NCBI GenBank assembly: GCA_947373495.1 | Contig: CANBXZ010000005.1 | Span: 1-56,032 of the forward strand | DNA: 56,032 nt | From: Acetobacteraceae bacterium | GTDB taxonomy: Bacteria; Pseudomonadota; Alphaproteobacteria; Acetobacterales; Acetobacteraceae | Direction of reading: 5' to 3' | Shown: piece after piece, positions 14,795-32,987 of the stretch | How positions within the stretch are numbered: the stretch's first letter is position 1 | Layout: the number at the start of each line of letters is the position of its first letter | Translations under genes and position numbers: made by a program | Notes under the pieces: model-generated | What the model was told of the DNA's origin: nothing | The model's database searches: none | The model's input: only the letters and a program-made list of their open reading frames with translations

Positions 14795-16453
14795 TCACTC
14801 CGCCCCGTAGTGCTGCTTCGCCTGCTCGGCGCTGACCAGGCCGAGCTTCACATCCCGCGCCACCTTGGCCGGGTCCCGCTTGGCTGGCGCGCCATAGCCG
14901 CCGCCACCCGGCATTTCCACCACCAGCTTGTCGCCCGGCGGAATCTGCTGGAAGCCCTTGGCCTTCAGCACCGTGCCGCTGGCCAGGGAAAGCCGGCCAT
15001 TGGCGCCGGGCTCGCCGCCCTCGCGCCCGCGCGCGGCGAACTTCACCCGCTCGAAGGTCGCATGGATGCCGAAGCCGCCGCCATGGCGGTGCGAGACCTC
15101 CATCACCTGGCCCAGGCCGCCGCGATGTTCGCCAGGGCCGCCGGAATCCCCGCGGTATTCCTTCTTCCAGATCACCAGCGGCGTGATGCTCTCGGTGATC
15201 TCCACCGGCACGTTGCGCACGCCGGAAGGGAAGGGCGTCGCACTCAGCCCGTCCTTGGTTGGCCGCGCGCCGGCGCCGCCGCTGTGGAAGGTGGTGACCT
15301 GGAACGGCGGATTCTTGGCGCCCTCGCCCTCGGAAAGCCCGTGGCCGGCGGCCAGCTTCAGGTTCCACAGGTTGCTGGTGCCCTCGGCCGGCACGGTGCC
15401 GGGCATGCACTGGTGCAGCGCGCCATAGACCACGTCGGGCAGCATGTGGCCGATGGTGCTGCGGGCGTTCACCGCCGAAGGCCAGGGCGCGTTGACGATG
15501 CAGTTGTCCGGCGCCTTCACCACCACGGCGTCCAGCGTGCCGGCATTGTTGGGGATGGTCGGCGCCACCAGGCACTTCACGCCGAAGGCGGTGTACGCCT
15601 CGGTGTAGCAGATCGGGCAGTTGATGCCGAAGGAGACGTGCGGCGAGGTGCCGGTGTAGTCCACCTCCACATGGTCGCCGGCGATGGTGACCTTGGCCTT
15701 CAGGTCGATCGGCTTGTCGTAGCCGTCCACCCGCATCTCATTGTACCAACTGCCCTGCGGCAGCTTGGCGATGGCCGCGGCCATGCCGGCGCGGCTGCGG
15801 CCGATGATGTGCTCGCCCAGCTCGTCCAGCGTGGCGATGCCGTGTTCCTTCATCATCTCGGAAAGCCGGGTTTCGCCGATGGCGTTGCAGGCCACCAGCG
15901 CGTGGATGTCGCCTTCCACCTGCACCGGCTCGCGCACATTGGCGCGGACGATCTTCATCAGGCTTTCGTCGAACACGCCTTCGCGCACCAGCGGCAGCAG
16001 CGGCAGGAACAGGCCCTCATGGAACACCTGGCGGCTGTCGGGCGACTGGCCCCAGCCGCCAATGTCCACCACATGCGTCGTGCAGGAAAACAGCGCCACC
16101 AGCTTGCCATTGTGGAAGGCGGGGGAGGTGACGACGATATCGTAGAGGTGGCCGGTGCCCTTCCACGGGTCGTTGGTCACGAAGTGGTCGCCCGGCTTCA
16201 TCGTCGCCACCGGGAATTCGCGGATGAAGTGGATGACGCTGCGCGCCATGCTGTTCACATGCCCGGGCGTGCCGGTGACGGCCTGGGCCAGCATCTGGCC
16301 TTCCAGGTCGAAGACGCCGGCGGAAATGTCGCCGGCTTCGCGCGCCGCGGTGGAAAACGCGGTGCGCACCAGGGTCTTGGCCTGTTCCTCCACCACGGAA
16401 AGCAGGCGGTTCCACATGACCTGCATGCGGATCTCGGCCAGGGCGTTGCTCAT
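14795..16453 (-). CDS. Hydantoinase B / oxoprolinase family subunit (HyuB), copy 1
   Basis: Catalytic-type B subunit of the ATP-dependent hydantoinase/5-oxoprolinase/acetone carboxylase superfamily. 552 residues, full length. Family landmarks: FDLEGQMLAQAVTGTPGHVNSM, GDHFVTNDPWKGTGHLYDIVV, HVVDIGGWG, a long central region with DGYDKPIDLKAKV and GTSPHVSFGINCP, and near the C-terminus RGDSGGPGEHRGGLGQ and MPGGGGYGAP. It overlaps upstream hyuA by ATGA (16450-16453), so the two subunits are coupled. Substrate unknown; N-methylhydantoin, 5-oxoproline, lactams and ketones are possibilities in this superfamily. Confidence 0.9.
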   Translation of the reverse strand: MSNALAEIRMQVMWNRLLSVVEEQAKTLVRTAFSTAAREAGDISAGVFDLEGQMLAQAVTGTPGHVNSMARSVIHFIREFPVATMKPGDHFVTNDPWKGTGHLYDIVVTSPAFHNGKLVALFSCTTHVVDIGGWGQSPDSRQVFHEGLFLPLLPLVREGVFDESLMKIVRANVREPVQVEGDIHALVACNAIGETRLSEMMKEHGIATLDELGEHIIGRSRAGMAAAIAKLPQGSWYNEMRVDGYDKPIDLKAKVTIAGDHVEVDYTGTSPHVSFGINCPICYTEAYTAFGVKCLVAPTIPNNAGTLDAVVVKAPDNCIVNAPWPSAVNARSTIGHMLPDVVYGALHQCMPGTVPAEGTSNLWNLKLAAGHGLSEGEGAKNPPFQVTTFHSGGAGARPTKDGLSATPFPSGVRNVPVEITESITPLVIWKKEYRGDSGGPGEHRGGLGQVMEVSHRHGGGFGIHATFERVKFAARGREGGEPGANGRLSLASGTVLKAKGFQQIPPGDKLVVEMPGGGGYGAPAKRDPAKVARDVKLGLVSAEQAKQHYGAE

Positions 16454-18507
16454 GCGGCGTCCTCCAGGATGATCTGGCCCAGGGCGTTGATCCAGGCGTT
16501 GAAGCCCGCCGGCACCACGGTGGTGGTTTCGTCCTCCACCACCAGGGCGGGGCCGGGGAAGTGCATGCCCGGCTTCAGCGACGGGCGTTCGTAGATGGCG
16601 GCTTCGTCGGCCAGGCCGGTGGCCGGGTCGAACAGGCTGCGATGCCCGACCGGCGCCGCGGCCGGCATGGCCATGGGCGCGGCGCTGGGCCGCGGCAACG
16701 GCCGGTCGGTGGCCAGGGACAGGGTCCAGGTCAGCGCCTCCACCTCCAGCCGCGGAATGGTGCGGCCGAACAGCGCGGCATAGGCGGCGTCGAACAGGGT
16801 CTTCAGCGCGGTGCAGTCTTCCGGCACGAAGGGGCGCAGCGGCAGCGGCACCGCAATCTCGTGCCCCTGGCCGCGATAGCGCATGAAGGCGGTGCGGTGT
16901 TCCACCAGTGCCTCGGTCGGGGCACCCATGCGCACCACGGCCTCGGCCTCGGCCCGCATGGCGGTGAACAGGGTGTTCAGCAGCGCCGTGTCCAGCGCCT
17001 CCACCCGCATGTGGCGGGTGCGCACCACCTCATAGGCAATGGGCGCGCGCAGGAAGCCGTGGGCGCTGCCGACGCCGGCGCCCACCGGCACCACCACCCG
17101 CTTCATGCCCAGCTTGCGGGCCAGGCGGGCGGCATGCAGCGGTGCGGCGCCGCCAAAGGCGATCAAGGTGCGGTCGGCGGTGTCCTTGCCGTTTTCCACC
17201 GCATGCACGCGGGCGGCGCTGGCCATGGTCTCGTCGACGATCTCGGCCACACCCGCCGCCGCGATCCGGGCATCGGCGTTGATGCTCTCCAGCGCCTTGG
17301 CCGCCTTTTCCGGGTACAGCGGAATGCTGCCACCGGCGAAGCGCGACGGGTCCAGCCGGCCCAGCGCGGTATCGGCGTCGGTCACCGTGGGTTCGGTGCC
17401 GCCACGGCCGTAGCAGGCCGGGCCGGGCACGCTGCCCGACGAATCCGGGCCGACCTGAATGCGGCCCAGCGCGTCCAGCCGGGCGATGCTGCCACCGCCG
17501 GCGCCGATCTCCACCAGTTCGATCACCGGGATGCGCACCGGCAGGCCGCTGCCCTGGATGAAGCGATAGGCGCGCGCCACCTCGAACTGGCGGCTGCGCT
17601 GCAATGTCAGGTTGTCCAGCAGCGTCAGCTTGGCGGTGGTGCCGCCCATGTCGAAGGCCACGGCGCGTTGCAGGTCGTTTTCCGCCGCCACGCCCAGCGC
17701 CAGGATGGCGCCGCCGGCCGGGCCGCTTTCCACCAGCCGCACCGGGTAGCGCTGCGCGGTTTCCACCGTGGTGATGCCGCCCGAGGACATCATCAGCAGC
17801 AGCGGCGCCTGCACCCCGGCCACCTTCAGGCCGTCGGCCAGCTCGCCCAGGTACTTGCCCATCAGCGGCAGCACATAGGCATTGGCGATGGTGGTGCTGG
17901 TGCGTTCGTATTCGCGGATCTCCGGCGCCACATCGCAGGAGAGCGAAACCGAGACGCCCGGCAGTTCCTCGGCCAGGATGGCCCCGGCGCGGCGTTCATG
18001 CGCTTCGTTGGTGAAGCTGTGCAGGAAGCACACCGCCACCGCCTCGATCCGCTCGGCGCGCAGGGTTGCGGCAATGGCGCGCAGCGCGGCCTCGTCCAGC
18101 GGCAGCAGCACCTCGCCATCGGCCGCCACGCGTTCCGGCACGCCCAGGCGCCAGTTGCGCGGCACCAGCGGGTCCGGTCGTTCCATATGGATGTCGTATT
18201 GCTCGAACCGGTGCTCCCACGCCATCTCCACGCTGTCGCGGAAGCCGGCGGTGGTGATGAGCGCGGTCCTGGCGCCCTTGCGCTCGATCAGCGCATTGGT
18301 GGCCAGGGTGGTGCCGTGCACCACCAGGCCCACTTCCCCGGGCGGGCAGTTGGCCAGCGCCAGGATTTGCCGGGTGCCTTCCAGCACGGCGCGCGCCGGG
18401 GCGTCCGGCGTGGTCAGCAGCTTGGTGGAATAGGTGCGGTCGGGCAGTTCCAGCACCAGGTCGGTGAAGGTGCCGCCGATGTCGACCGCCAGTCTGGCCT
18501 TGCTCAC
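16450..18507 (-). CDS. Hydantoinase A / oxoprolinase family subunit (HyuA), copy 1
   Basis: ATP-using A subunit of the hydantoinase/oxoprolinase superfamily, with an ASKHA (actin-like) fold. 685 residues from a GTG start. Phosphate-1-type motif VDIGGTFTDL at the N-terminus, then VHGTTLATNALIERKG, SLSCDVAPEIREYERTSTT, SSGGITT, ESGPAGGAILA, FDMGGTTAKL and GAGGGSIARLD. Its start overlaps the stop of the Bug binding-protein gene by four bases (18504-18507), so the operon is Bug-hyuA-hyuB. It should act with hyuB as an ATP-dependent amidohydrolase or carboxylase; the substrate cannot be told. Confidence 0.9.
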   Translation of the reverse strand: MSKARLAVDIGGTFTDLVLELPDRTYSTKLLTTPDAPARAVLEGTRQILALANCPPGEVGLVVHGTTLATNALIERKGARTALITTAGFRDSVEMAWEHRFEQYDIHMERPDPLVPRNWRLGVPERVAADGEVLLPLDEAALRAIAATLRAERIEAVAVCFLHSFTNEAHERRAGAILAEELPGVSVSLSCDVAPEIREYERTSTTIANAYVLPLMGKYLGELADGLKVAGVQAPLLLMMSSGGITTVETAQRYPVRLVESGPAGGAILALGVAAENDLQRAVAFDMGGTTAKLTLLDNLTLQRSRQFEVARAYRFIQGSGLPVRIPVIELVEIGAGGGSIARLDALGRIQVGPDSSGSVPGPACYGRGGTEPTVTDADTALGRLDPSRFAGGSIPLYPEKAAKALESINADARIAAAGVAEIVDETMASAARVHAVENGKDTADRTLIAFGGAAPLHAARLARKLGMKRVVVPVGAGVGSAHGFLRAPIAYEVVRTRHMRVEALDTALLNTLFTAMRAEAEAVVRMGAPTEALVEHRTAFMRYRGQGHEIAVPLPLRPFVPEDCTALKTLFDAAYAALFGRTIPRLEVEALTWTLSLATDRPLPRPSAAPMAMPAAAPVGHRSLFDPATGLADEAAIYERPSLKPGMHFPGPALVVEDETTTVVPAGFNAWINALGQIILEDAA

Positions 18508-19463
18508 TCGCTGTCCATCCGGATGTTGCCGGCGCGCACGACGCGCGCCCAGGTTGCGGAATCGCGCCGCAGATAGGCGATGTAGTCCGCCTGCGGCAGG
18601 GTCGCCGGGTGCAGCCCGGCCTCATCGAAGCGCCGCATCGTCGCGGGCTCCGTCATCACCTTCAGCACCGCCTCGGTCAGCCGGGCCAGCACCGGCGCCG
18701 GCGTGGCCGGGGGCGCCGCCAGGCCGTACCAGTTCTCCGCCTCATAGCCCGGCACGGCTTCGGCCATGGCGGGCGTTTCCGGCAGCAGCGCCCAGCGTTC
18801 GGGCGAGGTGACGGCCAACGCCCGGGCCTGGCCGGCGCGAATGAGGCCCATGGTCGCCGGGTCGCCGAAATAGGCGTCCACCACCTTGGCGGCCAGGTCG
18901 CTCAACGCCGGGCCGGTGCCGCGATAGGGAATGTGCAGCATCGGCAGGCCGGACATCTGCTTGAACAGCTCGCCGGCCAGGTGCTGGCTGGTGCCGATGC
19001 CGCCCGAGGCCCAGCGCAACTCATGGCCGCGGGCCCAGGCCAGGAACTCCGGCAGCGTATGGGCCGGGAAATCGGTGCGCACGGCGACGATGAAGGGCAT
19101 CCGCACCAGCCGGGTGATATGCGCCAGCGCGAAGGGGTCGTAGGGCAGCCGGCGCAGATGCGGCCCGGCGGTGATGGTGCCGGCGCCATCGAGCGACAGC
19201 GTGTAGCCATCGGCCGGGCTGTTCGCCATCGCCTCCACGCCGATGACGCCGCCGGCGCCGCCCTTGTTCTCCACCACCACGTTCTGGCCCAGCTCGCGCG
19301 CCAGCGGTTCGGCCAGCAGCCGGGCGGTCAGGTCCACGCCGCCGCCGGGCGGGAAGGGCACGATGAGGCGGACCGGCCGGTTGGGCCAGGGGGCGGCCTG
19401 GGCGTGCGCCAGGGCGGGGAGCAGCAGCGGGGCGGCCAGCAGGGAGCGACGGGAAATGCGCAT
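18504..19463 (-). CDS. Bug-type (TctC family) periplasmic solute-binding protein, copy 1
   Basis: 319 residues. Arg-Arg-containing signal peptide MRISRRSLLAAPLLLPALAHA, then the family start WPNRPVRLIVPFPPGGGVDLTAR and NKGGAGGVIG, both hallmarks of tripartite tricarboxylate transporter binding proteins. No TctA or TctB genes are nearby, so it is an orphan binding protein that may borrow a remote permease or act in sensing. It is the first gene of the minus-strand operon with hyuA and hyuB and is divergent from the TRAP operon. Confidence 0.92.
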   Translation of the reverse strand: MRISRRSLLAAPLLLPALAHAQAAPWPNRPVRLIVPFPPGGGVDLTARLLAEPLARELGQNVVVENKGGAGGVIGVEAMANSPADGYTLSLDGAGTITAGPHLRRLPYDPFALAHITRLVRMPFIVAVRTDFPAHTLPEFLAWARGHELRWASGGIGTSQHLAGELFKQMSGLPMLHIPYRGTGPALSDLAAKVVDAYFGDPATMGLIRAGQARALAVTSPERWALLPETPAMAEAVPGYEAENWYGLAAPPATPAPVLARLTEAVLKVMTEPATMRRFDEAGLHPATLPQADYIAYLRRDSATWARVVRAGNIRMDSE

Positions 19464-19609
19464 GGGCCAACGCTAGCACCTGCCACGGGCAGGAAAAGCC
19501 CCATGCTGCCTGTGCCAGCGGCAAACCGCGCACCAACGACGCATTTGGCCCCTGGCGCTGGCGCCCGGCTGTGCAATCCTTGCCCTCAACGGGAGATGAG
19601 GAGGCTAGC
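19464..19609. promoter_or_regulatory. 146-bp divergent intergenic region between two hydantoinase operons
   Basis: This spacer must hold the promoters of both operons. On the plus side a strong ribosome site GAGGAGG (19598-19604) precedes the ATG at 19610. I see no convincing -35/-10 pair and no obvious operator palindrome, and no regulator gene is adjacent. Confidence 0.5.
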
Positions 19610-20671
19610 ATGTTTCGCCGTCTGTTGCTGGGCGCCGTCGCCGCGCTCGGTTGTTCCACCTTTGCCGCGGCGCAGACGCTGCCGGCCGGCCCCAAGGTCA
19701 GCATTGTCGCGGTTACCCAGCCGGCGCCGACCCAGGCGCAGTTCCTGCTGGTTGACGTGCCATTCCTGCGCAACGCCCCGGCCCGCAGCGGCGGCCGCGT
19801 GGAGGTGAACCTTTCCACCCACGCCGAACGCAACCTGAGCGGCACCGAGCTGGTGCGGCTGGTGCGCAGCGGCCAGGCCGATATCGGCGCCTCCACCCTC
19901 ACCACCCTGGCCGGCGACGTGCCGATTCTGGATGGCGTGGACCTGACCGGCCTGGCGCCCGGCATCGCCACCGCGCGGCGCATCGCCGATGTGATGCTGC
20001 CGGTGGTCAACCGCGACCTGGAACGCTTCGGCGCCCGGCTCGTCATCATCTATCCCTTCCCGGCGCAGGTGCTGTGGTGCCGGCAGCCCTTCACCAGCCT
20101 GGCGGACATGCGCGGCCGCAAGGTGCGCACCTTCGGCCCCAGCCTGGTGGACCTGATGACCTCGCTGGGGGCGCAGCCGGTCAGCATCGGCTTCCCGGAA
20201 GTTTACAGCGCGCTGGAACGCGGCGTGGTGGACTGCGCCGTCACCGGCACCGGCTCGGGGGCCTCGGTGCGCTGGCCGGAAGTGGCGACGCATATCTCCA
20301 ACCTGCCGCTGAGCTGGGCGCTGGCCGGGTACATGGTCAACATCGCCTGGTGGAACCGGCTGGACCCCGCGGTGCGCAGCTTCATGGAAGCGACGTTCCG
20401 CGAGATGAACGACAAGCTGTGGGAACTGGGTGACGCCGCGACGCGGGATGGCATCGACTGCGCCATCGGCAACGCCGCCGGCTGCCGGATCCACCCGCTG
20501 GCCACCCGGCCGATGACCGAGGTGCGTGGCACCCCGGCGGATGCGGAAGAACTGAAGCGCATTCTGCGCGAACGCGTGCTGCCCGGCTTTGTGCAGCGTT
20601 GCGGTGCGCGCTGTGGCGACCTGTTCAACGAACACATCGCCCCGCTGGCCGGCGTGCGGGCAGGCGGGTGA
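19610..20671 (+). CDS. TRAP transporter solute-binding protein (DctP family)
   Basis: 353 residues from ATG 19610, chosen because GAGGAGG lies 5 bp upstream and a signal peptide follows (MFRRLLLGAVAALGCSTFAAAQ). Periplasmic carboxylate-binding protein of a TRAP transporter. Recognisable blocks: ADIGASTLTTLAGDVPILDG, FPAQVLWCRQPFTSLADMRGRKVRTFG, and GFPEVYSALERGVVDCAVTGTGS, the usual DctP ligand-arginine and hinge regions. Two Cys pairs near the C-terminus may form disulfides. First gene of a six-gene operon. Confidence 0.88.
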   Translation: MFRRLLLGAVAALGCSTFAAAQTLPAGPKVSIVAVTQPAPTQAQFLLVDVPFLRNAPARSGGRVEVNLSTHAERNLSGTELVRLVRSGQADIGASTLTTLAGDVPILDGVDLTGLAPGIATARRIADVMLPVVNRDLERFGARLVIIYPFPAQVLWCRQPFTSLADMRGRKVRTFGPSLVDLMTSLGAQPVSIGFPEVYSALERGVVDCAVTGTGSGASVRWPEVATHISNLPLSWALAGYMVNIAWWNRLDPAVRSFMEATFREMNDKLWELGDAATRDGIDCAIGNAAGCRIHPLATRPMTEVRGTPADAEELKRILRERVLPGFVQRCGARCGDLFNEHIAPLAGVRAGG

Positions 20672-21282
20672 TCGGCCTGTTGAACCAGGCGCGGCGGCTG
20701 CGTCACGGCGTCGCCGCGCTGGCTACCTTCATGGGCTGGGCGGCGGGCTGGAATTACGTCACCTGCGCCCTGTTCATCACCTTCGACATCGTCGGCCGCG
20801 CCGCCTTCGGGGTTTCCTCCACCGCCACGGTGGAGGTGACCGGCTACATGCTGGCCATCGGCATCGCCTGGGGGCTGGCGCATACGCTGGCCAAGCGGGC
20901 GCATATCCGGGTGGATGTGCTGGTTAACCGCCTGCCGGTGGGCCTGCGCGCCTGGCTGCATGCGCTGGCGCTGGCGCTGCTGGGCGTGTTCGCCGGCTTC
21001 TGCCTCTGGGCCGCGTGGAGCCTGGTGGACGAGAGCCTGCTGTTCGACGCGCATGACAATACCAGCCTGCGCATTCCGCTGGTGCTGCCCCAGGGGCTGT
21101 GGCTGGTGGGCATTGCCGCCTTCTGCCTGATGGTGGCGGTGCTGCTGCTGGAATCCCTGCTGTCGCTGCTGGCCGGGCAGGGGCCGGAACTGGACCGTCT
21201 GCTGGGCAGCCGCACGCTGGAAGACGAAACCGCCGAGGCATTGGAGGCCGTTGAAATGGCACGCAAGGGCGGGCACGCATGA
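20668..21282 (+). CDS. TRAP transporter small permease (DctQ family)
   Basis: 204 residues from GTG 20668, which overlaps the dctP stop as GTGA; this start suits translational coupling. Four hydrophobic helices are visible, with the DctQ block TATVEVTGYMLAIGIAWGLAHTLAKRAHIRVD. Inner-membrane subunit that pairs with the large permease to import carboxylates with sodium. Overlaps dctM by ATGA at 21279-21282. Confidence 0.88.
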   Translation: MIGLLNQARRLRHGVAALATFMGWAAGWNYVTCALFITFDIVGRAAFGVSSTATVEVTGYMLAIGIAWGLAHTLAKRAHIRVDVLVNRLPVGLRAWLHALALALLGVFAGFCLWAAWSLVDESLLFDAHDNTSLRIPLVLPQGLWLVGIAAFCLMVAVLLLESLLSLLAGQGPELDRLLGSRTLEDETAEALEAVEMARKGGHA

Positions 21283-22646
21283 TCGCCATCGTCTTCCTGC
21301 TGCTGCTGCTGGGCACCGCGATCTTCGCGGCCGCCACCGGTGGCCAGGCCATTCCGGTGGTGGAGATCCTTGGGCTGACCGGGGTGTTCCTGCTGTTCTT
21401 CGGCGCCGGGGTCTATGTGGCCGCGGTGCTGGGCTTGCTGGGCATTCTGGTTGGCCTGGCCTTCAGCGACCGGCCGTGGTGGGCCTTCGCCGGGCAAACG
21501 CTGTGGTCGCCTTCCAGCAACTTCGTGCTGGTGGCGGTGCCGCTGTTCCTGCTGATGGGCGAGATCCTGTTGCGCGCCGGCCTCAGCGACCGGCTGTACA
21601 AGGCGCTGAACGTCTGGCTGAACCGGCTGCCGGGTGGGCTGCTGCACACCAACATCGTCTCCTGCGCGGTGTTTTCCGCCATCAGCGGGTCCTCGGTGGC
21701 CACGGCCGCCACCATGGGCAGCGTGGCGCTGCCCTACTTCAATGGCACCAAGTACAGCCAGCGCATGGTGCTGGGCTCGCTGGCCGCCGGTGGCGCGCTG
21801 GGCAACCTGATCCCGCCCGGCATCACCTTCATCATCTATGGCCTCATCACCGAAACCTCGGTGGGGGCGCTGTACATCGCGGCGATCTTCCCCAGCCTGC
21901 TGGTCACCGGGCTGTTCATCGGCGTCATCATGATCCATGGGCTGACCCACCCGATGGAAAAGCCGCCGGCGCTGCCGCTGCGGGACAAGGTGCGCGCGCT
22001 GGTCGGGCTGGTGCCGACCTTCCTGCTGATGCTGCTGGTGCTGGGCAGCATCTACGCCGGCTTCGCCACGCCAACCGAGGCGGCGGCGCTGGGCGTGGTG
22101 GGCAGCGCGGTATTCGCCGCCATCGAGGGCAAGCTGAGCTTCCGCCTGCTGCATGCCAGCGCCGAGGCCACCGCGCGCAACACCGCGCTGCTCGGCCTCA
22201 TCATCTTCGGCGCCTACCTGCTGAACTACCTGCTGACGACGATCAACGTGCCGCAGGCGCTGGCGGGCTTCATCTCCGGCATGCCGTTGCCGGGCTGGGC
22301 CATCATGCTCTGCATCCTCGGGCTCTACATTGCGTTGGGCACCTTCATGGAAGGCTTTTCCATGATCATCACCACGGTGCCGGTGGTATTCCCCATCGTC
22401 ACCGCGCTGGGCTACGACCCCATCTGGTTCGGCGTGGTGGTGACCATGCTGGTGGAGATCGCGCAGATCAGCCCGCCCGACGGCACCGTGATGTACGTGC
22501 TGCAAGGCATGCGGCCCAAGCCCGGTGGGCCGATTACCGATGTGTTCGCCGGCGTGATGCCGTTTCTCGGCGCCTACATGCTGGCCGTGCTGCTGCTGAT
22601 GCTGTTCCCCGGCATTGCCACCTGGCTGCCAAAGATCATGGGTTGA
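21279..22646 (+). CDS. TRAP transporter large permease (DctM family)
   Basis: 455 residues with about 11-12 hydrophobic helices. DctM landmarks: FVLVAVPLFLLMGEILLRAG, VSCAVFSAISGSSVATAATMGSVALP, GSLAAGGALGNLIPPGITFIIYG, TPTEAAALGV and EIAQISPPDGTVMYVL. Translocation subunit of the sodium-coupled carboxylate importer. The hydantoinase A gene follows 4 bp later, which ties transport to hydantoinase chemistry. Confidence 0.93.
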   Translation: MIAIVFLLLLLGTAIFAAATGGQAIPVVEILGLTGVFLLFFGAGVYVAAVLGLLGILVGLAFSDRPWWAFAGQTLWSPSSNFVLVAVPLFLLMGEILLRAGLSDRLYKALNVWLNRLPGGLLHTNIVSCAVFSAISGSSVATAATMGSVALPYFNGTKYSQRMVLGSLAAGGALGNLIPPGITFIIYGLITETSVGALYIAAIFPSLLVTGLFIGVIMIHGLTHPMEKPPALPLRDKVRALVGLVPTFLLMLLVLGSIYAGFATPTEAAALGVVGSAVFAAIEGKLSFRLLHASAEATARNTALLGLIIFGAYLLNYLLTTINVPQALAGFISGMPLPGWAIMLCILGLYIALGTFMEGFSMIITTVPVVFPIVTALGYDPIWFGVVVTMLVEIAQISPPDGTVMYVLQGMRPKPGGPITDVFAGVMPFLGAYMLAVLLLMLFPGIATWLPKIMG

Positions 22647-22650
22647 TACG

Positions 22651-24702
22651 ATGTCCCGCCCCGTTCGCATCGCCGTCGATATCGGCGGCACCTTCACCGA
22701 CCTGCAGATCCTGGATGCGCGCACCGGCGCGGTGGTGGCGTGGAAAACGCCGACCACGCCGGAGGACCCGAGCATTGGCCTGCTGACCGGGGTGAAGGAA
22801 GCCGCCCTGCGCTTCGGCTTCACCCTGGCCGATGTGGGCCTGCTGCTGCACGGCACCACCATTGCCACCAACGCCGTGCTGGAACGCAAGCTGGCCCGCG
22901 GCGTGCTGCTGACCACGGCGGGCTTCGAGGATGTGCTGGAGATCACCCGGCACTTCCGCCGCGACGTGTACGGCCTGGCGCCCGACCCCTTCCCGGTGCT
23001 GGTGCCGCGCGACCGCCGCCTGGGCGTGGCCGAACGCATGCGCGCCGATGGCAGCGTGGAAACCGCGCTGGACGAAGCCGCGCTGGCCGGCCTGCTGGCC
23101 CGGCTGGACGCCACCCAGGCCGAGGCGGTGGCGATTGCCCTGCTGCATGCCTATGCCAACCCGGCGCATGAAGTGGCGCTGAAGGCGTGGCTGGCGCGCG
23201 AACGCCCGGGCCTGCCGGTTTCGATCTCGTCCGAGATCAGCCCCGAAATCCGCGAATACGAACGCAGCAGCACCACGGTGCTGAACGCGCTGCTGGTGCC
23301 GGTGGTGAAGGCCTATCTGGAAAAGCTGGAGGCGCGGCTGGGGGAGGGCGGCTTCGCGCCGCTGGTGTTCCTGGTGCAGTCCAATGGCGGCGTGTGCAGC
23401 CTGCGCACCGCGGCCGAGCAACCGGCGCGGCTGCTGCTCTCCGGCCCCTCCGGCGGCGCGCTGGCGGCCGGGCGCATCGCCGAATTGCTGGGCAAGCCGA
23501 ACCTGGTGGCGGTGGACATGGGCGGCACCAGCTACGACGTTTCCGTGGTGCAGGAAAACCGCGTCGGCGTGGTGACGCAGGGCGAGATCGACCGCCTGCC
23601 GGTGCGCCTGCCGATGGTGGAGATGCGCACCATCGGTGCCGGCGGTGGCAGCATCGGCAGCGTCGATGCCGGCGGTCGCCTCACCGTGGGCCCGCGCAGC
23701 GCCGGCGCCCGTCCCGGCCCGGTGGCCTATGCCCGCGGCGGCACCGAACCCACCGTGACCGACGCCAACCTGGCGCTGGGCCGGCTGGACCCGGACTACT
23801 TCCTGGGCGGCGCGATGAAGCTGGACATGCCCGGCACCCGCGCCGCCATCGCCGCCAAGGTCGGCGCGCCGCTGGGCCTGAGCACCGAGGCCGCGGCGCT
23901 CGGCATCATCACCGTGGTCAACGCCAACCTGGGCGCGGCGGTGCGGCTTTCCCTGTTCGAGAAGGGGCTGGACCCGCGCGACTTCGCGCTGCTGTCCTTC
24001 GGTGGGGCCGGCGGGCTGCACGCCACCGACGTGGCGACCGAAATGGGCATCAACGAAGTGGTCTTCCCGCGCGAGCCGGGGACGCTTTCGGCCTATGGCA
24101 TCCTGTTCAGCGACCTGGTGCAGGACCTGGCGCGGTCCCGCCTGCTGCGCGCCGATGCCGCCGCGCTGCCCGCCATCGGCGCGGTGGTGGCGGAGTTGCG
24201 CGCCGAGGCCGATGCCCGGCTGGCGGCCGATGGCGTCGCCGCCGATGCGCGCGAGATTTTGGTCGCCGCCGACATGCGCTATCACGGCCAGGCGTTCGAG
24301 TTGCTCATCCCCTGGGGCGATGTCGGGACGCCGGACGCGGCCATGCTGGCGGCGCTGAAGCAGCGTTTCCACGCCATGCACAAGCAGCGCTTCAGCTACG
24401 ACAGCCCGGCCGAGGCGGTGGAGATCGTCACGCTGCGCGTTACCGCCATCGGCCGGTTGCCGAAGCCGGAAGCCGCCGAAGCCGTGCCCGCCGCCCGCCC
24501 GGCGCTGAAGGGCAGCCGCCGGGTGTGGGAGGAACACGCCTGGCGCGACATTCCGGTATGGGACCGCGAGGCGCTGCCGCCGGAGGACATCATCACCGGC
24601 CCGGCGCTGGTGGAGGAGCCCTTCGCCACCCACTACATCAGCCGCGGCTGGACCGCGACGCTCGGCGCCGCCGGCGCCCTGATTGCCCGGAGGACCGCGT
24701 AA
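22651..24702 (+). CDS. Hydantoinase A / oxoprolinase family subunit (HyuA), copy 2
   Basis: 683 residues from ATG 22651, right after dctM. Same domain plan as the minus-strand copy: AVDIGGTFTDLQ, LHGTTIATNAVLERKLARG, SISSEISPEIREYERSSTT, QSNGGVCSL, LSGPSGGALAAGR, VDMGGTSYDVSV, GAGGGSIGSVDAGG and LSFGGAGGLHATDVA. It differs from copy 1 in many positions, so this is a separate lineage and not a recent duplication. Its stop overlaps the hyuB start by one base. Confidence 0.92.
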   Translation: MSRPVRIAVDIGGTFTDLQILDARTGAVVAWKTPTTPEDPSIGLLTGVKEAALRFGFTLADVGLLLHGTTIATNAVLERKLARGVLLTTAGFEDVLEITRHFRRDVYGLAPDPFPVLVPRDRRLGVAERMRADGSVETALDEAALAGLLARLDATQAEAVAIALLHAYANPAHEVALKAWLARERPGLPVSISSEISPEIREYERSSTTVLNALLVPVVKAYLEKLEARLGEGGFAPLVFLVQSNGGVCSLRTAAEQPARLLLSGPSGGALAAGRIAELLGKPNLVAVDMGGTSYDVSVVQENRVGVVTQGEIDRLPVRLPMVEMRTIGAGGGSIGSVDAGGRLTVGPRSAGARPGPVAYARGGTEPTVTDANLALGRLDPDYFLGGAMKLDMPGTRAAIAAKVGAPLGLSTEAAALGIITVVNANLGAAVRLSLFEKGLDPRDFALLSFGGAGGLHATDVATEMGINEVVFPREPGTLSAYGILFSDLVQDLARSRLLRADAAALPAIGAVVAELRAEADARLAADGVAADAREILVAADMRYHGQAFELLIPWGDVGTPDAAMLAALKQRFHAMHKQRFSYDSPAEAVEIVTLRVTAIGRLPKPEAAEAVPAARPALKGSRRVWEEHAWRDIPVWDREALPPEDIITGPALVEEPFATHYISRGWTATLGAAGALIARRTA

Positions 24703-26378
24703 TGGCACTCGGCCCGATTGAGATCGAAGTCATCCGCAACGCGCTGACCGCCGCGGCGGCCGAGATGGACGTGACGGTGTGGCGCACCAGCCGCAGCACC
24801 ATCGTGCGTGAGCTGCTGGACTATTCCACCGCGGTGTTCGACGCGGCCGGCAACAACGTGGCGCAGTCCGCGCGCATCCCCGGCCACCTGAACAGCATGT
24901 CGCACTTCCTGCGCGAGATCCTGGACAAGTACATCGACCCCGACACTTGGGGGCCGGATGACGTCGTCATCAGCAACGACCCCTATTGCGGTGGCCAGCA
25001 CCTGCCGGACATCACCGCCTTCAAGCCGGTGTTCGTGGATGGCCGGCGCATCGCCTTCGTCGGCACGCTGTGCCACCACATCGACGTCGGTGGCCTGGCG
25101 GCAGGCAGCTACGCCGCCAAGGCGATCGAGATCTTCCAGGAAGGCCTGCGCATCCCGCCGGTCAAGCTGATCGAGAACGGCAAGCGCAACGAGGGTATCT
25201 GGGCGATGATCCGCCAGAATATCCGCAAGCCGGACCTGCTGCTGGGCGACCTGACCAGCCAGATCGCCAGCCTGGATGTCGGCGCCGCGGCGCTGCACCG
25301 CCTGGCCGCGCGCTACGGCGCCGATGGCATGATGGAAGCCAGTGCCCGCATCCTGGACATGAGCGAGGCGGCGATGCGCGCCGCCATCGGCGCCATGCCG
25401 GACGGTACCTATGAGTTCACCGATTTCCTCGACGATGATGGCATCGACATCGGCAAGCCCATTCGCCTGCATGTCAGCCTGAAGGTGCATGGCGAGGAGA
25501 TCACGGTCGATCTCTCCGGCTGTTCGGCGCAGGTGACCGGGCCGACCAATGCCACGCTGGCCAGTTCCAACAGCGCGGTGATGTTCGCCATCATGTGCGC
25601 CTCCATGTCCGGCAATTCCGGCGACGAGGCCTTCCTGGCCAATGCCGGCTGCTACCGGCCGATCCACACCGTGGCGCCGGTGGGCTCGGTGGTGAATGCG
25701 CAGTTCCCGGCGCCGGTGGTGCACCGGGTGGCGGTGACGCACCGCTTGCTGAACGCCATGTTCGGCGCGCTGCACCAGGTGGTGCCGGAGCGGATTCCGG
25801 CGGCCTATTACGGCAACAGCTACGTCACCACCTTCCAGACCGTGGCGGCCAACAACAGCCGCGAAGTGCTGGTGGAGATCGAGATCGGCGGCAGCGGCGC
25901 GCACCCGGCGAAGGACGGCGTGAATGCCTATGCCAGCGGCATGCACAACAACAGCAACATCCCGATCGAGATGATCGAGAGCCAGATGCCCCTCACCATC
26001 ACCCGCTACGAGTTGCTGCGCGACAGCGGCGGCGCCGGCATGCGGCGCGGCGGCCTGGGCCTGGCGCGGGAATGGCGCGTCGACAGCGCCAGTTGCCTGT
26101 TCACCGCCAACATGGACCGCTTCGTCCACGCGCCCTATGGCCTGGCCGGTGGCGGCCCGGCCTCGCTTGGCAAGCTCATCCATGTCCAGGGCGGGGTGGA
26201 GCACGACCTGCCGCCGAAATCCGACAACGTGGTGCTGAAGCAGGGCGACCGGGTGCGGCTGGAAACCAGCGGTGGCGGCGGCTTCGGCCCGCCGACGCGG
26301 CGCGACCGCGCGCTGTTGGCGCAGGATGTGGCGCTGGGCTACATCAGCGCGGAGGACGCCAAGGCCCACTACGCATGA
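24702..26378 (+). CDS. Hydantoinase B / oxoprolinase family subunit (HyuB), copy 2
   Basis: 558 residues from ATG 24702 (one-base overlap TAATG with hyuA). B-subunit blocks: IEIEVIRNALTAAAAEMDV, AVFDAAGNNVAQSARIPGHL, DDVVISNDPYCGGQHLPDIT, CHHIDVGGLAAGSYA, GCSAQVTGPTNA, GSGAHPAKDGVNAY, RDSGGAGMRRGGLGL and ETSGGGGFGPP. Should form a complex with the HyuA upstream. The reading frame is open for 1.5 kb further upstream, but that is shadow of hyuA. Overlaps the next gene by ATGA. Confidence 0.92.
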   Translation: MALGPIEIEVIRNALTAAAAEMDVTVWRTSRSTIVRELLDYSTAVFDAAGNNVAQSARIPGHLNSMSHFLREILDKYIDPDTWGPDDVVISNDPYCGGQHLPDITAFKPVFVDGRRIAFVGTLCHHIDVGGLAAGSYAAKAIEIFQEGLRIPPVKLIENGKRNEGIWAMIRQNIRKPDLLLGDLTSQIASLDVGAAALHRLAARYGADGMMEASARILDMSEAAMRAAIGAMPDGTYEFTDFLDDDGIDIGKPIRLHVSLKVHGEEITVDLSGCSAQVTGPTNATLASSNSAVMFAIMCASMSGNSGDEAFLANAGCYRPIHTVAPVGSVVNAQFPAPVVHRVAVTHRLLNAMFGALHQVVPERIPAAYYGNSYVTTFQTVAANNSREVLVEIEIGGSGAHPAKDGVNAYASGMHNNSNIPIEMIESQMPLTITRYELLRDSGGAGMRRGGLGLAREWRVDSASCLFTANMDRFVHAPYGLAGGGPASLGKLIHVQGGVEHDLPPKSDNVVLKQGDRVRLETSGGGGFGPPTRRDRALLAQDVALGYISAEDAKAHYA

Positions 26379-26857
26379 GCTTCGATCCCGCCGAACACCG
26401 CATGGTGCCGCAGCAGCGCTGGTACGAGGATTTCAGCCTCGGCGAACGCTTTGTGCTGCCCAGCCGCACCATGACCAGCGGGATCTTCGCCGCCTTCCAG
26501 GTGGCCAGTGGCGACAACCACCCGGTGCATTACGACCGGGAATTCTGCCGTCGCCATGGCCATGCGGACATGTTGGCGCATGGCTTCCAGGTGGTGATCC
26601 AGACCTGTGCCGGGGCGGGGTTGTTCCCGCACATGGTGGAGGAGTCGCTGAAGGGCTTCATCGAACAGTCCAGCCGCTTCCTGGCGCCGGTGCTGCTGGG
26701 GGACACGGTGTATCCCTGCCTGGAAGTGGATGAGCTTTCGCCCAACCGTACCACCGGCGTGCTGGGGCTGCGCAGCACGGTACACAACCAGCACGGCGTG
26801 CTGGTGCTGGAAGGCCGGCACCGCTACCTGCTGAAGCAGCGCCATCCGAGCACCTGA
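26375..26857 (+). CDS. MaoC-like hotdog-fold dehydratase
   Basis: 160 residues. R-hydratase-type motif ASGDNHPVHYDREFCRRHGHADMLAHG, with the Asp and His expected in MaoC hydratases, near residues 50-75. Members add water to enoyl-CoA or dehydrate 3-hydroxyacyl thioesters. Coupled to hyuB by ATGA (26375-26378). As last gene of the dctPQM-hyuAB operon it suggests that the ring-opened or carboxylated product is handled as an acyl-CoA, but that is inference. Confidence 0.85.
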   Translation: MSFDPAEHRMVPQQRWYEDFSLGERFVLPSRTMTSGIFAAFQVASGDNHPVHYDREFCRRHGHADMLAHGFQVVIQTCAGAGLFPHMVEESLKGFIEQSSRFLAPVLLGDTVYPCLEVDELSPNRTTGVLGLRSTVHNQHGVLVLEGRHRYLLKQRHPST

Positions 26858-26870
26858 GCGGCGCCCAGGC

Positions 26871-26921
26871 ACCGGATCGGGATCTTCGCCGCAGGAGGCG
26901 CTGCGCCCGATCCGGTCTTTT
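26871..26921 (+). terminator. Terminator hairpin after the TRAP-hydantoinase operon
   Basis: ACCGGATCGGG (26871-26881) pairs perfectly with CCCGATCCGGT (26906-26916), followed by CTTTT. The loop holds a smaller CGCC/GGCG pair. Ends the plus-strand operon; lies between convergent genes. Confidence 0.75.
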
Positions 26922-26957: not shown

Positions 26958-27935
26958 CTACCGCAGCAACGCCTCCCAGCGCGTCACCTCGGCGGCCACA
27001 TAGGCTTCCGCTTCGGGCAGCGTCAGGTCCAGCACCCGGTCCGCGCCCAGTTCCGCCATGCGCAGGCGCAGCCTTTCGCTGCGCAGCGCGCGGGCGAAGG
27101 CGGCGTGGATTTCCTGGCGCAGCGCCAGCGGCGTGGCGCTGGAAAGCCAGGCCGCCTGCCACACCGTCATTTCCGCCGGCACGCCCATTTCGCGCCAGGT
27201 CGGCACCTCCGGCGCGTGCGGGCTGCGTTGGGCGCCGGTGACGGCGAAGGCGCGGGCCTGGCCGGCGCGGGCGGTGGCCAGCGCTACGGTGGCCACGTCG
27301 AACACGATGTTGATGCGCCCGGCGATCAGGTCCAGCTGCGCCGGGGCGCCGCCGCGATAGGGCACCGCCACCAGCTCCAGCCCGGTGGTCTTCAGGAACA
27401 GCAGGCCGGCCAGTTGCAGCGTGCCGGCGCCGGAGGAGGTGGCGTAGTCGAACCGCCCCGGCTCGGCCCGGGCCAGGGCCAGCAACTCGCGCAGGTCCCG
27501 CGCCGGGACGTTGTTGGCCACCAGCATCACCATGGGCGATTCGGCCACCACGCTCACCGGGGTCAGCGCCGTGGCCACATCCACGCTGGCATGGGGCGCC
27601 ATCACCCGCAGCCCGGCCTGGCCGGTGTTGCTGAACAGCGCGGTGTGGCCATCCGGCGCCGCGCGTACCACCGCCTCGGCGCCGAGCATGCCCTGGGCGC
27701 CGGGGCGATTCTCCACGATCACCGGGAAGGGCAGTTGCGCGGTCAGCGCCTCCGCCACCACCCTGGCCACCGTGTCGTTCGAACCACCGGCCGCGGCCGA
27801 GACCACGAAGCGCACCGGGCGTTCCGGCCAGGCCCGGGCCGGCGTGGCTGCCAGTAATGGGGACAGCAGCAGCGCCAGCACTGGGGCCAGCACTGGGGCC
27901 AGCAACGGTGCCAGCACCCATGCCGGCCGGGCCAT
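26958..27935 (-). CDS. Bug-type (TctC family) solute-binding protein, copy 2
   Basis: 325 residues; second orphan binding protein of the tricarboxylate-transporter type. A long hydrophobic signal region (about 1-35, ending TPARA) contains a repeated LAPV/LAPVL unit coded by a 12-nt tandem repeat. The mature part starts WPERPVRFVVSAAAGGSNDTVARVVAE and has NRPGAQGMLGAEAV, the family blocks. No TctA/TctB permease is adjacent. It is downstream of the small alpha/beta-barrel gene with a 3-bp gap, so the two form one minus-strand operon. Confidence 0.9.
   Translation of the reverse strand: MARPAWVLAPLLAPVLAPVLALLLSPLLAATPARAWPERPVRFVVSAAAGGSNDTVARVVAEALTAQLPFPVIVENRPGAQGMLGAEAVVRAAPDGHTALFSNTGQAGLRVMAPHASVDVATALTPVSVVAESPMVMLVANNVPARDLRELLALARAEPGRFDYATSSGAGTLQLAGLLFLKTTGLELVAVPYRGGAPAQLDLIAGRINIVFDVATVALATARAGQARAFAVTGAQRSPHAPEVPTWREMGVPAEMTVWQAAWLSSATPLALRQEIHAAFARALRSERLRLRMAELGADRVLDLTLPEAEAYVAAEVTRWEALLR
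27874..27921. repeat. 12-nt tandem repeat inside a signal-peptide coding region
   Basis: Two exact units of GCCAGCACTGGG (27874-27897) followed by two diverged units. On the minus strand it codes for the Leu-Ala-Pro-Val repeats of the Bug protein signal peptide. Confidence 0.8.
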
Positions 27936-27938
27936 GGC

Positions 27939-28397
27939 TCAGGCTTCCAGCTTGCGGATGAAGCGGCGGCTGCTGCGGAACAGCGGCCGCACCCGGTCGG
28001 TCCAGGCCGTGGTGCGGGCGGCGATCCAATGCGGGGTTTCGGGAATGTTCGGGGCTTCGAAGCGGTAGCAGGCCAGCAGGTTGAACGGGCCGCCATCCAG
28101 CCGGCGGTAGCGGGCGCCGCCGCGGGTGCCGGGCACGGCGCACAGCATCGGCAGGTGCTCGCCCTCATACCATTCGAAGATCGCCGGCAGGTCGGCCTCG
28201 GCGATTTCCAGCTCAACCGTATAGATGTAGGGCGCCGGCGAAATGTCGCCGATGACGCCGAGGCAGGCATAGGGAATGCCGCCGGCCGGGGTCTGGGCCG
28301 GGCCGGGTTCCATCCAGGTGATGAGGCCGGTCGGGTCGGCGATGTCACGGTAGCGCGTGCCGGCGCCTTCGCCGGGCAGGAACAGCATGTCGGCCAT
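27939..28397 (-). CDS. Small protein of probable dimeric alpha/beta-barrel type, function unknown
   Basis: 152 residues from the ATG at 28397, chosen because CGGAGGA lies 7 bp upstream and the protein sequence before it looks random. The stretch YIYTVELEIAEADLPAIFEWYEGEHLPML resembles the EthD/dimeric alpha-beta barrel pattern, but I cannot name a family firmly. It starts 67 bp from the divergent CMD-family gene and is followed by the Bug gene after 3 bp. Confidence 0.65.
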   Translation of the reverse strand: MADMLFLPGEGAGTRYRDIADPTGLITWMEPGPAQTPAGGIPYACLGVIGDISPAPYIYTVELEIAEADLPAIFEWYEGEHLPMLCAVPGTRGGARYRRLDGGPFNLLACYRFEAPNIPETPHWIAARTTAWTDRVRPLFRSSRRFIRKLEA

Positions 28398-28464
28398 ATG
28401 GGCATCCTCCGAGTTTCGCGCCATCATCACGGGAATGCCGTGAACGGCAAGAGGAGAGAACGCC

Positions 28465-28992
28465 ATGGCCCGCCTTCCGTACAGCAATCCGAACGACCCC
28501 GAGCGCGCCGAGGCGGCCAAGGTTGTCACCGAAAGCCGCAAGAAGATCGGCCACCTGCACCGCATGCTGATGCACAGCCCGCCGCTCAGCATCGGCTGGA
28601 TTCAGTTCTGGGATGCGGTGCGCTGGAAGACCCAGCTTTCCGGCGCGCTGCGCGAACTCGTCATCTGCCAGGTCGCCGCTATCAACGGGGCGCAATATGA
28701 ATGGGCGGCGCATGCGCCGATTGGCCTGAAGGAAGGGCTGCGGCAGGAGCAGCTGGATGCGCTGCCGAACTGGGCGGACAAGCCCGCGCTGTGGACCGCC
28801 GCCGAAGCCGCCGCGCTGGGCCTGTGCGACGAGATGACGAAGAAGGTGCATGTGGCCGATGGCACCTTCGCCAAGGCCAAGGCGGCGCTGCCGGAACGCC
28901 ATGTGGTGGAGCTGGTGGTCACCATCGCCAGCTACAACTGCGTCTCCCGCGTGCTGGAGGCGCTGGAGATCAACGGGGCCGATCCGCTGTGA
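28465..28992 (+). CDS. Carboxymuconolactone decarboxylase (CMD) family protein
   Basis: 175 residues, ribosome site AGAGGAGAG before the ATG. The all-helical CMD block is SGALRELVICQVAAINGAQYEWAAHAPIG; the AhpD-type CxxC is absent, and QYEWxxH matches the non-thiol group related to gamma-carboxymuconolactone decarboxylase. Its TGA overlaps the next gene's GTG, so it is cotranslated with a ThDP enzyme. Role probably in catabolism; substrate unknown. Confidence 0.85.
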   Translation: MARLPYSNPNDPERAEAAKVVTESRKKIGHLHRMLMHSPPLSIGWIQFWDAVRWKTQLSGALRELVICQVAAINGAQYEWAAHAPIGLKEGLRQEQLDALPNWADKPALWTAAEAAALGLCDEMTKKVHVADGTFAKAKAALPERHVVELVVTIASYNCVSRVLEALEINGADPL

Positions 28993-30713
28993 CGCTGGCC
29001 GACGGTCGCAGCGCCGAAGGGCGCGGAGAGCTGGATCGGCCGGCCGTTCTCAACGGCGCTGAATGGCTGGTGCGCAGCCTGAAGGCCAGCGGTGTCGGGC
29101 ATTTCTTCTTCGTGGACGCCGTGCTGCGGCGTTCGCTGCTGGAGATGGAGCGCCTGGGCGTGCAGCCGGTGCTGGCGCATACCGAAAAGGCCGCCGTATA
29201 CATGGCGGATGCCTATGGCCGGGTTTCCGGCCGGCCCGGCGTGGTGGCGGCCCAGGCGGTGGGCACCGCCAACCTGGCGGCGGGGTTGCAGGACGCCTTT
29301 CTGGGCCGCTCCCCGGTGCTGGCGCTGACCGGCCACAAGGTGCAGGCCCAGCAGCATCGCAATGCCTACCAGGAACTGCATCATTGGCCGCTGTTCGCGC
29401 CGGTCACCAAGCATTCGGCGCTGTGCGACACCGCCGAGGACCTGGCCCGGCAGTTCCGCCAGGTGTGGAGTGCGGCGGTTTCAGTGCCGGCGCGGCCGGT
29501 GCACCTCGACCTCAACGGCCTGATGGGCGAGTTCGTCGAGACCAGCGAAACCGCGGTGCCGCCGGCTGCCCTGGGCGAATGGCGGATGCCGCTGCACCGG
29601 CCGGTGGCGGCCGCCGAGGAGGTGGCGCGCGCCGCGCGGGCGCTGCTTGCCGCCGGCCGGGTCTGCATCGTGGCCGGTGACGGCGCGGCGCTTTCCGGCT
29701 GCGGCGCGGAAGTGCTGGCCCTGGCGGAGCTGTTGCAGGCGCCCATCGCCACCAGCCTGGGCGCGCGCGGCTTCATTGCCACCACCCATCCGCTGGCGGT
29801 GGGGGTGGTGGGCAACTACTCGGCGCCACCGGCCAACCAGGTGGTGTGCGCGGCGGAGCTGGTGTTCTTCATCGGCTGCGACACCGGCGACCAGGTGACG
29901 CATACTTGGCGCGTGCCGGCCATCGGCACCCGTGTGGTGCAACTGGACGCCGACCCGCTGGAATTCGAACGCAGCTACGCCACCGAAGCCACCATGCTGG
30001 GCGACCCGAAGGCCACCCTGCAGGCGCTGCTGGCGGTGCTGGGCCGCCCGGTGCGCGATGGCACCTACCTGGCCGAAGCCCAGGCCAGCATGGCGGCGTG
30101 GCGGCGGGACATGGCGCCCCGACTGACCAGCGATGCCGTGGCGATCGACCCGGCGCGGCTCTGCGCCGAGATCACCGCGGCGCTGCCGGCGGACGGCATA
30201 TTGGTGGCGGATACCGGCTATTCCGGCATCTGGACCGGCACGCTGATCGACTTCAACGGCGCGGGGCAAACCTATCTGCGTGCCGCCGGCTCGCTGGGCT
30301 GGGCCTTCCCGGCCTCGCTGGGCGCCAAGTGCGCGGCGGGCGACCGCAAGGTGGTGTGCTGGACCGGGGATGGCGGCTTCTACTACCACCTGCCGGAGCT
30401 GGAGACGGCGCGGCGGCTGGGCATTGCGGTGACGGTGGTGGTCAACAACAACTCCGGCTTCGGCCAGGGCTGGCCGAACTACCTGAAGCAGGCCGGCAAT
30501 CGCCCGAAGGCGGCCGAGCAGGTGCTGCGCTTCGGCCCGACCAACTTCGCCGAGGTAGCGCGCAGCTTCGGCCTGAAGGGCATTCGGGTGGAGCACCCGA
30601 GCCAGATCGCCGGCGCGCTGCGCGAGGCGATGGCTGCCAATGAGACCGTGGTGGTGGATGTCGCGACCGAGATCGAGGCCCGCGCCCCGGAGCCTTGGAC
30701 CCCTGGCGCCTGA
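28989..30713 (+). CDS. Thiamine diphosphate-dependent enzyme, acetolactate synthase-like
   Basis: 574 residues from GTG 28989 (GTGA overlap with the CMD gene). Three-domain ThDP enzyme: N-terminal Pyr domain with the activating Glu in AHTEKAAVYMADAYGR, central domain with IATSLGARGFIATTHPLAVG, C-terminal PP domain with metal/ThDP motif GDGGFYYHLPELETARRLG and VVNNNSGFGQ. It resembles acetolactate synthase, oxalyl-CoA decarboxylase and benzoylformate decarboxylase; no regulatory subunit gene is present, so a catabolic decarboxylase or lyase is more likely than amino-acid synthesis. Confidence 0.87.
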   Translation: MTLADGRSAEGRGELDRPAVLNGAEWLVRSLKASGVGHFFFVDAVLRRSLLEMERLGVQPVLAHTEKAAVYMADAYGRVSGRPGVVAAQAVGTANLAAGLQDAFLGRSPVLALTGHKVQAQQHRNAYQELHHWPLFAPVTKHSALCDTAEDLARQFRQVWSAAVSVPARPVHLDLNGLMGEFVETSETAVPPAALGEWRMPLHRPVAAAEEVARAARALLAAGRVCIVAGDGAALSGCGAEVLALAELLQAPIATSLGARGFIATTHPLAVGVVGNYSAPPANQVVCAAELVFFIGCDTGDQVTHTWRVPAIGTRVVQLDADPLEFERSYATEATMLGDPKATLQALLAVLGRPVRDGTYLAEAQASMAAWRRDMAPRLTSDAVAIDPARLCAEITAALPADGILVADTGYSGIWTGTLIDFNGAGQTYLRAAGSLGWAFPASLGAKCAAGDRKVVCWTGDGGFYYHLPELETARRLGIAVTVVVNNNSGFGQGWPNYLKQAGNRPKAAEQVLRFGPTNFAEVARSFGLKGIRVEHPSQIAGALREAMAANETVVVDVATEIEARAPEPWTPGA

Positions 30714-30750
30714 TCGCTGAAGGGCCGCAGGGCCCGGAGGCGTGAATCAG
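30708..30750. repeat. Divergent relative of the REP-like palindrome
   Basis: CGCCTGATCGCTGAAGG at the left and GAGGCGTGAATCAGTCGC at the right keep the layout of the repeat family with compensatory changes (arms CTGAT and ATCAG). It overlaps the stop codon of the ThDP gene. Confidence 0.5.
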
Positions 30751-30781
30751 TCGCCCCGAACGAAGTGAGGAAACAACGCAG

Positions 30782-32502: not shown

Positions 32503-32520
32503 CGCCGCCGCGTGGTGGCG

Positions 32521-32910: not shown

Positions 32911-32987
32911 GCTGAATTCTTCCTCGGGGTCTTGCGTGAAGCCGCTGCTGCGCCGCACCATCGGGGCCGAGCCAGTGGAAAGCGACC

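Follow-up and report, generated by a model that had tools for sequence, protein, structure and literature searches.

The region from position 14795 to about 34190 of the window, the stretch of 56,032 nucleotides analyzed here from a bacterium related to Roseomonas, is most likely a new, conserved and otherwise conventional catabolic cluster with familiar parts. There is about an even chance that it serves the catabolism of nitrogen-containing cyclic compounds by means of two ATP-dependent cyclic-amide (hydantoin-type) hydrolases, with putative substrates. Bacteria encode a great many HyuAB enzymes, almost none of which has an assigned function. This cluster links an ATP-dependent ring-opening enzyme to a TRAP transporter and to an amidase of the carbamoylase family across genera, which provides testable substrate candidates.

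Gene content, transport and control regions

In the first-pass annotation, two divergent operons were described, bug1-hyuA1-hyuB1 and dctP-dctQ-dctM-hyuA2-hyuB2-maoC, and this layout was borne out, as each of the nine genes lies at the coordinates given at that time and matches the expected Pfam family with a highly significant score in a Pfam profile search (Table 1). The spacer between the operons indeed measures exactly 146 bp, and the two HyuAB pairs are as clearly diverged as was claimed, with alignment identities of 39% between HyuA1 and HyuA2 and 33% between HyuB1 and HyuB2. Overlapping stop and start codons had been reported throughout and are found at six of the seven junctions (by 4, 4, 4, 4, 1 and 4 bp), but dctM and hyuA2 are separated by a 4-bp gap. 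The right edge at 26857 is correct for the end of maoC but not for the cluster, of which the conserved part extends, according to the neighbourhood comparison, to about 34190; the downstream half (26958-34190) and a third HyuAB pair in relatives had both been missed.

Table 1. Coordinates of the genes and non-coding features of the cluster, and of the third HyuAB pair in related loci
Feature	Position	Strand	Description
hyuB1	14795-16453	minus	metal-binding hydrolase subunit, pair 1; PF02538 487 bits
hyuA1	16450-18507	minus	ATP-binding subunit, pair 1; GTG start; PF01968/PF05378/PF19278; Lys class, DMGGTTAK
bug1	18504-19463	minus	TctC/Bug solute-binding protein; PF03401 209 bits
divergent spacer	19464-19609		146-bp promoter region between bug1 and dctP
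dctP	19610-20671	plus	TRAP solute-binding protein; PF03480 72 bits; carboxylate-binding Arg motif DMRGRKVR
dctQ	20668-21282	plus	TRAP small membrane subunit; GTG start; PF04290 77 bits
dctM	21279-22646	plus	TRAP large membrane subunit; PF06808 264 bits; TIGR00786 308 bits (cut-off 268)
hyuA2	22651-24702	plus	ATP-binding subunit, pair 2; PF01968 297 bits; Asp class, DMGGTSYD
hyuB2	24702-26378	plus	metal-binding hydrolase subunit, pair 2; PF02538 561 bits
maoC	26375-26857	plus	hydratase-like; PF01575 39 bits; GD-x-x-P-x-H motif in translation
hairpin after maoC	26871-26920	plus	-32.7 kcal/mol, z -3.5, followed by U-rich tail; likely terminator
bug2	26958-27935	minus	second Bug binding protein; PF03401 154 bits
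conserved protein	27939-28397	minus	about 152 aa; cluster companion; neighbour in L069-L071 and L075-L077
CMD	28465-28992	plus	carboxymuconolactone-decarboxylase-like protein; PF02627 54 bits
TPP enzyme	28989-30713	plus	TPP-dependent, acetolactate-synthase superfamily; PF02775/PF00205/PF02776; PRK06112 316 bits; 8x3x
3HCDH	30782-31741	plus	3-hydroxyacyl-CoA-dehydrogenase-family enzyme; PF02737 144 bits
SDR	31738-32502	plus	short-chain dehydrogenase; PF13561 172 bits
Rid	32521-32961	minus	Rid-family protein; PF01042 95 bits
M20	32988-34190	plus	hydantoinase/carbamoylase-family amidase; TIGR01879 273.5 bits (cut-off 204); 6c0d 348 bits
hyuB3-hyuA3	L074:7639-11558; L075:8454-12301; L077:14577-18466; L115:3098-6858		third HyuAB pair in relatives

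The start of the TPP gene was set from its overlap with the CMD-like gene, and the start at 28701 in the first list of open reading frames is too early. The conserved protein of about 152 amino acids gave no match in a Pfam search, and the Rid-family gene is not found at the corresponding place in the same-genus loci L069, L070 and L106. All 13 cluster genes compared between two genomes are under purifying selection (dN/dS 0.11-0.23). This selection and the synteny seen in other genomes show that the layout is not a product of chance.

Two uptake systems, one for each HyuAB pair, had been proposed for these operons. This holds for the pair 2 operon, in which the TRAP transporter is complete: DctP, DctQ and DctM are all encoded, and the arginine motif is present in DctP when aligned to solved TRAP binding proteins. 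In most such proteins, this arginine pairs with the carboxylate of the substrate (PMC5812351). It does not hold for the bug side, which consists of a lone binding protein; no TctA or TctB gene adjoins bug1 in the operon to make up a TTT transporter, and four TctA genes are located elsewhere in the genome. Bug binding proteins that stand alone in this way are already known (PMC5812351). A description of a TRAP-HyuAB operon was not found in the literature searched.

Among five genomes of the same genus, the spacer sequences share about 80% identity, with invariant blocks at 19472-19482 (11 bases), 19486-19510 (25 bases) and 19567-19580 (14 bases) that are suggestive of control sites. No sigma-70-like promoter sites were detected in a scan of these 146 bp, and neither of the two operons contains a regulator gene. 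Shared regulation of both operons, as was suggested previously, is conceivable but unproven. The plus-strand operon likely ends at the hairpin after maoC, which has an interrupted stem and is missing from the terminator consensus scan.

Conservation of the two operons in related genomes

The divergent layout is intact wherever a contig of the same genus spans the region, as in four other genomes (L069-L072); in a fifth, G001, hyuA1 is located at the contig end. The layout is also present in three to four further genera with protein identities of 70-80%, namely in G067 (L074), G040 (L075), G039 (L076) and Roseomonas sp. CECT 9278 (L115, with hyuA1 at the edge of the compared stretch), and in L076 it is kept with hyuB1 missing. 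In the latter locus (L076:2196-5309), hyuA1 is found beside a different Bug gene without an adjoining hyuB1 though the contig continues, which is either a lone HyuA or an assembly fault. Orthologues of HyuA1 with at least 70% identity are present in eleven genomes, and the HyuA2 orthologue group is clear, with identities of 53-93% and a next best match of 46%. The operons could have turned out never to occur together, but the neighbourhood search found them paired in the same genus and in the three to four further genera, and the divergent pairing is real synteny. It is not obligatory, because pair 1 (as bug1-hyuA1-hyuB1 or hyuA1-hyuB1) and the hyuA2-hyuB2 unit occupy different loci in G063, G076 and G011; the two operons are separable modules. 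A single open frame in G011 (L080:9010-12714) encodes both HyuA2 and HyuB2, in support of HyuA2B2 as a single AB enzyme. This fused frame resembles eukaryotic oxoprolinase and 7hk5.

The third pair, in the order hyuB3-hyuA3, lies between bug1 and dctP, directly before dctP, in L074, L075 and L115. In G028 (L077), the arrangement is hyuB3-hyuA3-dctPQM-hyuA2B2-maoC without pair 1, and no hyuA3 orthologue was found in the window genus.

Genes of the downstream half also accompany hyuA2B2 elsewhere. These are the TPP, dehydrogenase and SDR genes in G028 (L077), the CMD, TPP, dehydrogenase, SDR and M20 genes in G032 (L079/L103), the dehydrogenase, SDR and M20 genes in G010 (L083), the dehydrogenase and SDR genes in G040 (L104), and the SDR gene in an Acetobacteraceae bin (L123). 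Synteny of hyuA2B2 with an M20 gene of the TIGR01879 type was seen in only three of about 13 genera (the window genus, G032 and G010), and no M20 gene was found near hyuA2B2 in G067, G040 and G028. In distant relatives, the transport genes next to hyuA2B2 are of several kinds (for ABC transporters, other TRAPs or Bug proteins), and since they differ, the substrate of HyuA2B2 may vary. Queuosine synthesis genes, present upstream of hyuA2 in three genera (L079, L081 and L083) and, in a fourth genome (L098), close to a relative of HyuA1, were considered as functional neighbours and rejected, as they are housekeeping genes and probably incidental. A minus-strand Bug gene recurs after maoC in L074, L076, L077 and L115, at the same place as bug2; the window-genus and other-genus proteins at this place share only about 30% identity, which looks like an exchange of one binding protein for another.

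The HyuAB enzymes and the Lys/Asp site

Both pairs belong to the HyuAB superfamily, with HyuA and HyuB Pfam domains encoded by adjacent genes. In the alignment, the ATP motifs DxGGTxTD, DxGGT and GxxPGP are kept in HyuA1 and HyuA2, and the metal ligands matching D41, H99, D102 and H124 of CapB (D/H/D/H) are kept in HyuB1 and HyuB2. Mutation of the same ATP and metal sites in caprolactamase abolished or reduced the activity (PMC8453981). The equivalent of CapB Tyr136 is kept in HyuB2 and absent from HyuB1, and neither of the aligned HyuB proteins has the vicinal Cys410-Cys411 found in the substrate pocket of CapB. Elsewhere in the family, a HyuB subgroup with His as the third metal ligand (D-H-H-H, not D-H-D-H) was observed in L132, L134, L138, L148, L159, L183, L189 and L191. 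Among solved structures, the highest scores go to two ring-opening amidohydrolases, caprolactamase (6yra) and an N-methylhydantoinase (7hk5), with the ketone carboxylases far behind.

The closest paralogues of HyuA1B1, a sister group with 53-56% identity, are part of a family-wide M20-hyuA-hyuB operon with the M20 gene directly before hyuA. This operon is present in nine other genomes and in the own genome (C433, partial at the contig end), at loci L196-L201 and L203-L206. An Amidohydro_3 gene follows it in L197 and L200, where checked, and L202 contains a hyuAB pair without an M20 match. The earlier proposal of an amidohydrolase or carboxylase in each operon stands as regards two different ATP-dependent HyuAB enzymes and can be narrowed. 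An amidohydrolase is favoured over a carboxylase because genes for the gamma, alpha-prime and epsilon subunits, which mark the carboxylases (PMC5214803), are found in neither operon and because an M20 carbamoylase occurs with the closest paralogues and among the neighbours. A genome search with PF08882 gave no match, with a positive control that was equally silent.

The position of CapA Asp302, located beside the expected ATP gamma-phosphate and on the tunnel to CapB, is occupied by Lys in HyuA1 and HyuA3 and by Asp in HyuA2. Asp302 has been called conserved, with Lys281 at the same place in Apc-alpha-prime, the proposed bicarbonate-kinase subunit of acetophenone carboxylase (PMC8453981). Among 153 HyuA proteins (window and L069-L213), a sample that leans to Alphaproteobacteria and HyuA2-derived patterns and of which the proportions are not representative, 81 have Lys, always as TAK, and 72 have Asp, always as S-x-D, with no third state. 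The proteins come from many phyla, and most phyla with better sampling, as well as the archaea, contain both states. Four state changes suffice on a quick HyuA tree built without the Lys/Asp columns, and in a more careful tree of 47 sequences HyuA1 and HyuA2 fall in separate, well-supported clades. Such a strict two-state site offers a simple handle on why some HyuAB enzymes need bicarbonate.

Two further relations of this site were tried and rejected. A preference for one Lys-class and one Asp-class pair in the same locus gave no signal, as loci with several pairs are mixed and same-class alike (at least two pairs in L091-L094, L140, L154, L160, L162 and L207). As for covariation with HyuB Tyr136, this Tyr is found in 35 of the 64 pairs of the Asp class and in 6 of the 77 pairs of the Lys class, but the rows are related and the rule is not strict. 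It is also very improbable that both pairs act in sequence on the same molecule as two mechanistic classes, in which the Asp-class HyuA2B2 would open the ring after phosphorylation and the Lys-class HyuA1B1 would then act on the product in a step that depends on bicarbonate (carboxyphosphate). The kinase site of HyuA1B1 resembles Apc-alpha-prime at one residue; if this sequence of steps were true, the Lys/Asp split would be a family-wide functional divide.

Proposed function, alternatives and known systems

The gene content, conserved residues, conserved synteny and purifying selection are observed, and from them we infer substrates, an order of steps and co-regulation. DctPQM would import a carboxylate-bearing cyclic amide, imide or ureide. 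HyuA2 would use ATP to phosphorylate the ring carbonyl of this compound, and hydrolytic opening of the ring would be completed at the HyuB2 metal site. An N-carbamoyl or acyl group could then be taken off by the M20 amidase, and the carbon chain might be processed by the two dehydrogenases together with MaoC and the TPP enzyme. HyuA1B1, expressed divergently from the same spacer, would be a second, anciently diverged ATP-dependent cyclic-amide hydrolase for a related substrate, presumably served by its own Bug protein together with a membrane partner from another locus. A hydantoin-type ring opening with subsequent loss of a carbamoyl (or acyl) group is favoured because the HyuA1B1 paralogues are found in the M20-hyuA-hyuB operon and an M20 gene is present in the window cluster. 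Against this reading stand the few genera with an M20 gene linked to hyuA2B2, the separate operons in G063, G076 and G011 and the varied transporter neighbours in distant relatives; moreover, simple hydantoin degradation leaves the MaoC, TPP and 3HCDH enzymes unexplained.

One or both HyuAB pairs might instead be ATP-dependent carboxylases of ketones or acyl compounds, similar to acetone or acetophenone carboxylase, and the carboxylated product would pass to the TPP enzyme, MaoC and the hydroxyacyl dehydrogenase. Pointing in this direction are the shared superfamily, the nature of MaoC and 3HCDH as acyl-chain enzymes, and the Lys of HyuA1, which aligns with Lys281 of Apc-alpha-prime, the putative bicarbonate kinase. 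However, this is unlikely given the missing gamma gene, the association with the M20 carbamoylase and the scores against the acetone and acetophenone carboxylase equivalogs, which reach at most 290 bits (289.6 and 254.5 against 1500) where the cut-offs are 1250-1500 bits. We give as little credence to true caprolactamases or 5-oxoprolinases in a cluster that degrades simple lactams. CapA (6yra) is the best solved match of HyuA2 (38%), but the caprolactamase equivalog of NCBIfam, with a cut-off of 1000 bits per subunit, is missed by pair 1 (475.8 + 188.9) and pair 2 (549.9 + 278.1), and both HyuB proteins are without the vicinal Cys pair. Moreover, the arginine motif of the TRAP leads one to expect a substrate with a carboxylate, which is missing from simple lactams, although 5-oxoproline does have one.

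The most serious alternative, which we regard as possible but less probable, is that the operons are independent and functionally unrelated and that their pairing is kept by shared descent only, in a family so rich in HyuAB, Bug and TRAP genes that they are common neighbours. At least ten HyuB genes in the own genome, the multi-pair loci elsewhere, the separate operons in three genomes and the missing preference between Lys-class and Asp-class pairs all agree with this. Its weakness is the retention of the layout in every spanning same-genus genome and beyond the genus, together with the conserved spacer blocks. The catabolic cluster for cyclic nitrogen compounds is kept here as the preferred reading.

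Compared with known systems, the acetone and acetophenone carboxylases (5m45, 5l9w) have a homologous alpha/beta core with HyuA identities of 27-32%, but their gamma, alpha' and epsilon genes are absent here. HyuA identity to N-methylhydantoinase 7hk5 is 35-37%. Caprolactamase CapAB of Pseudomonas jessenii (6yra, PMC8453981) is also a two-subunit ATP-dependent cyclic-amide hydrolase that shares the ATP motifs and metal ligands, with A/B subunit identities of 38%/33% for pair 2 and 35%/28% for pair 1; it differs in its vicinal Cys pair, in its gene order BA instead of AB, and in Asp302, which is Lys in HyuA1. In the hyuABC route of Pseudomonas sp. NS671, as cited in PMC8453981, ATP-dependent ring opening by HyuAB is followed by an N-carbamoyl amino-acid hydrolase. 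The likeness to this route is the associated TIGR01879 M20 gene, syntenic in three genera, whereas here this gene adjoins neither pair and extra TPP, MaoC, 3HCDH and SDR genes are present. The M20-hyuA-hyuB operon of the same bacterial family is, like pair 1, of the Lys class and has the carbamoylase attached, but it differs from the pair 1 operon in having no bug1 and another genome location. As in known TRAP systems (PMC5812351), DctPQM is complete; a difference is that the TRAP genes here overlap each other and are directly followed by hyuAB.
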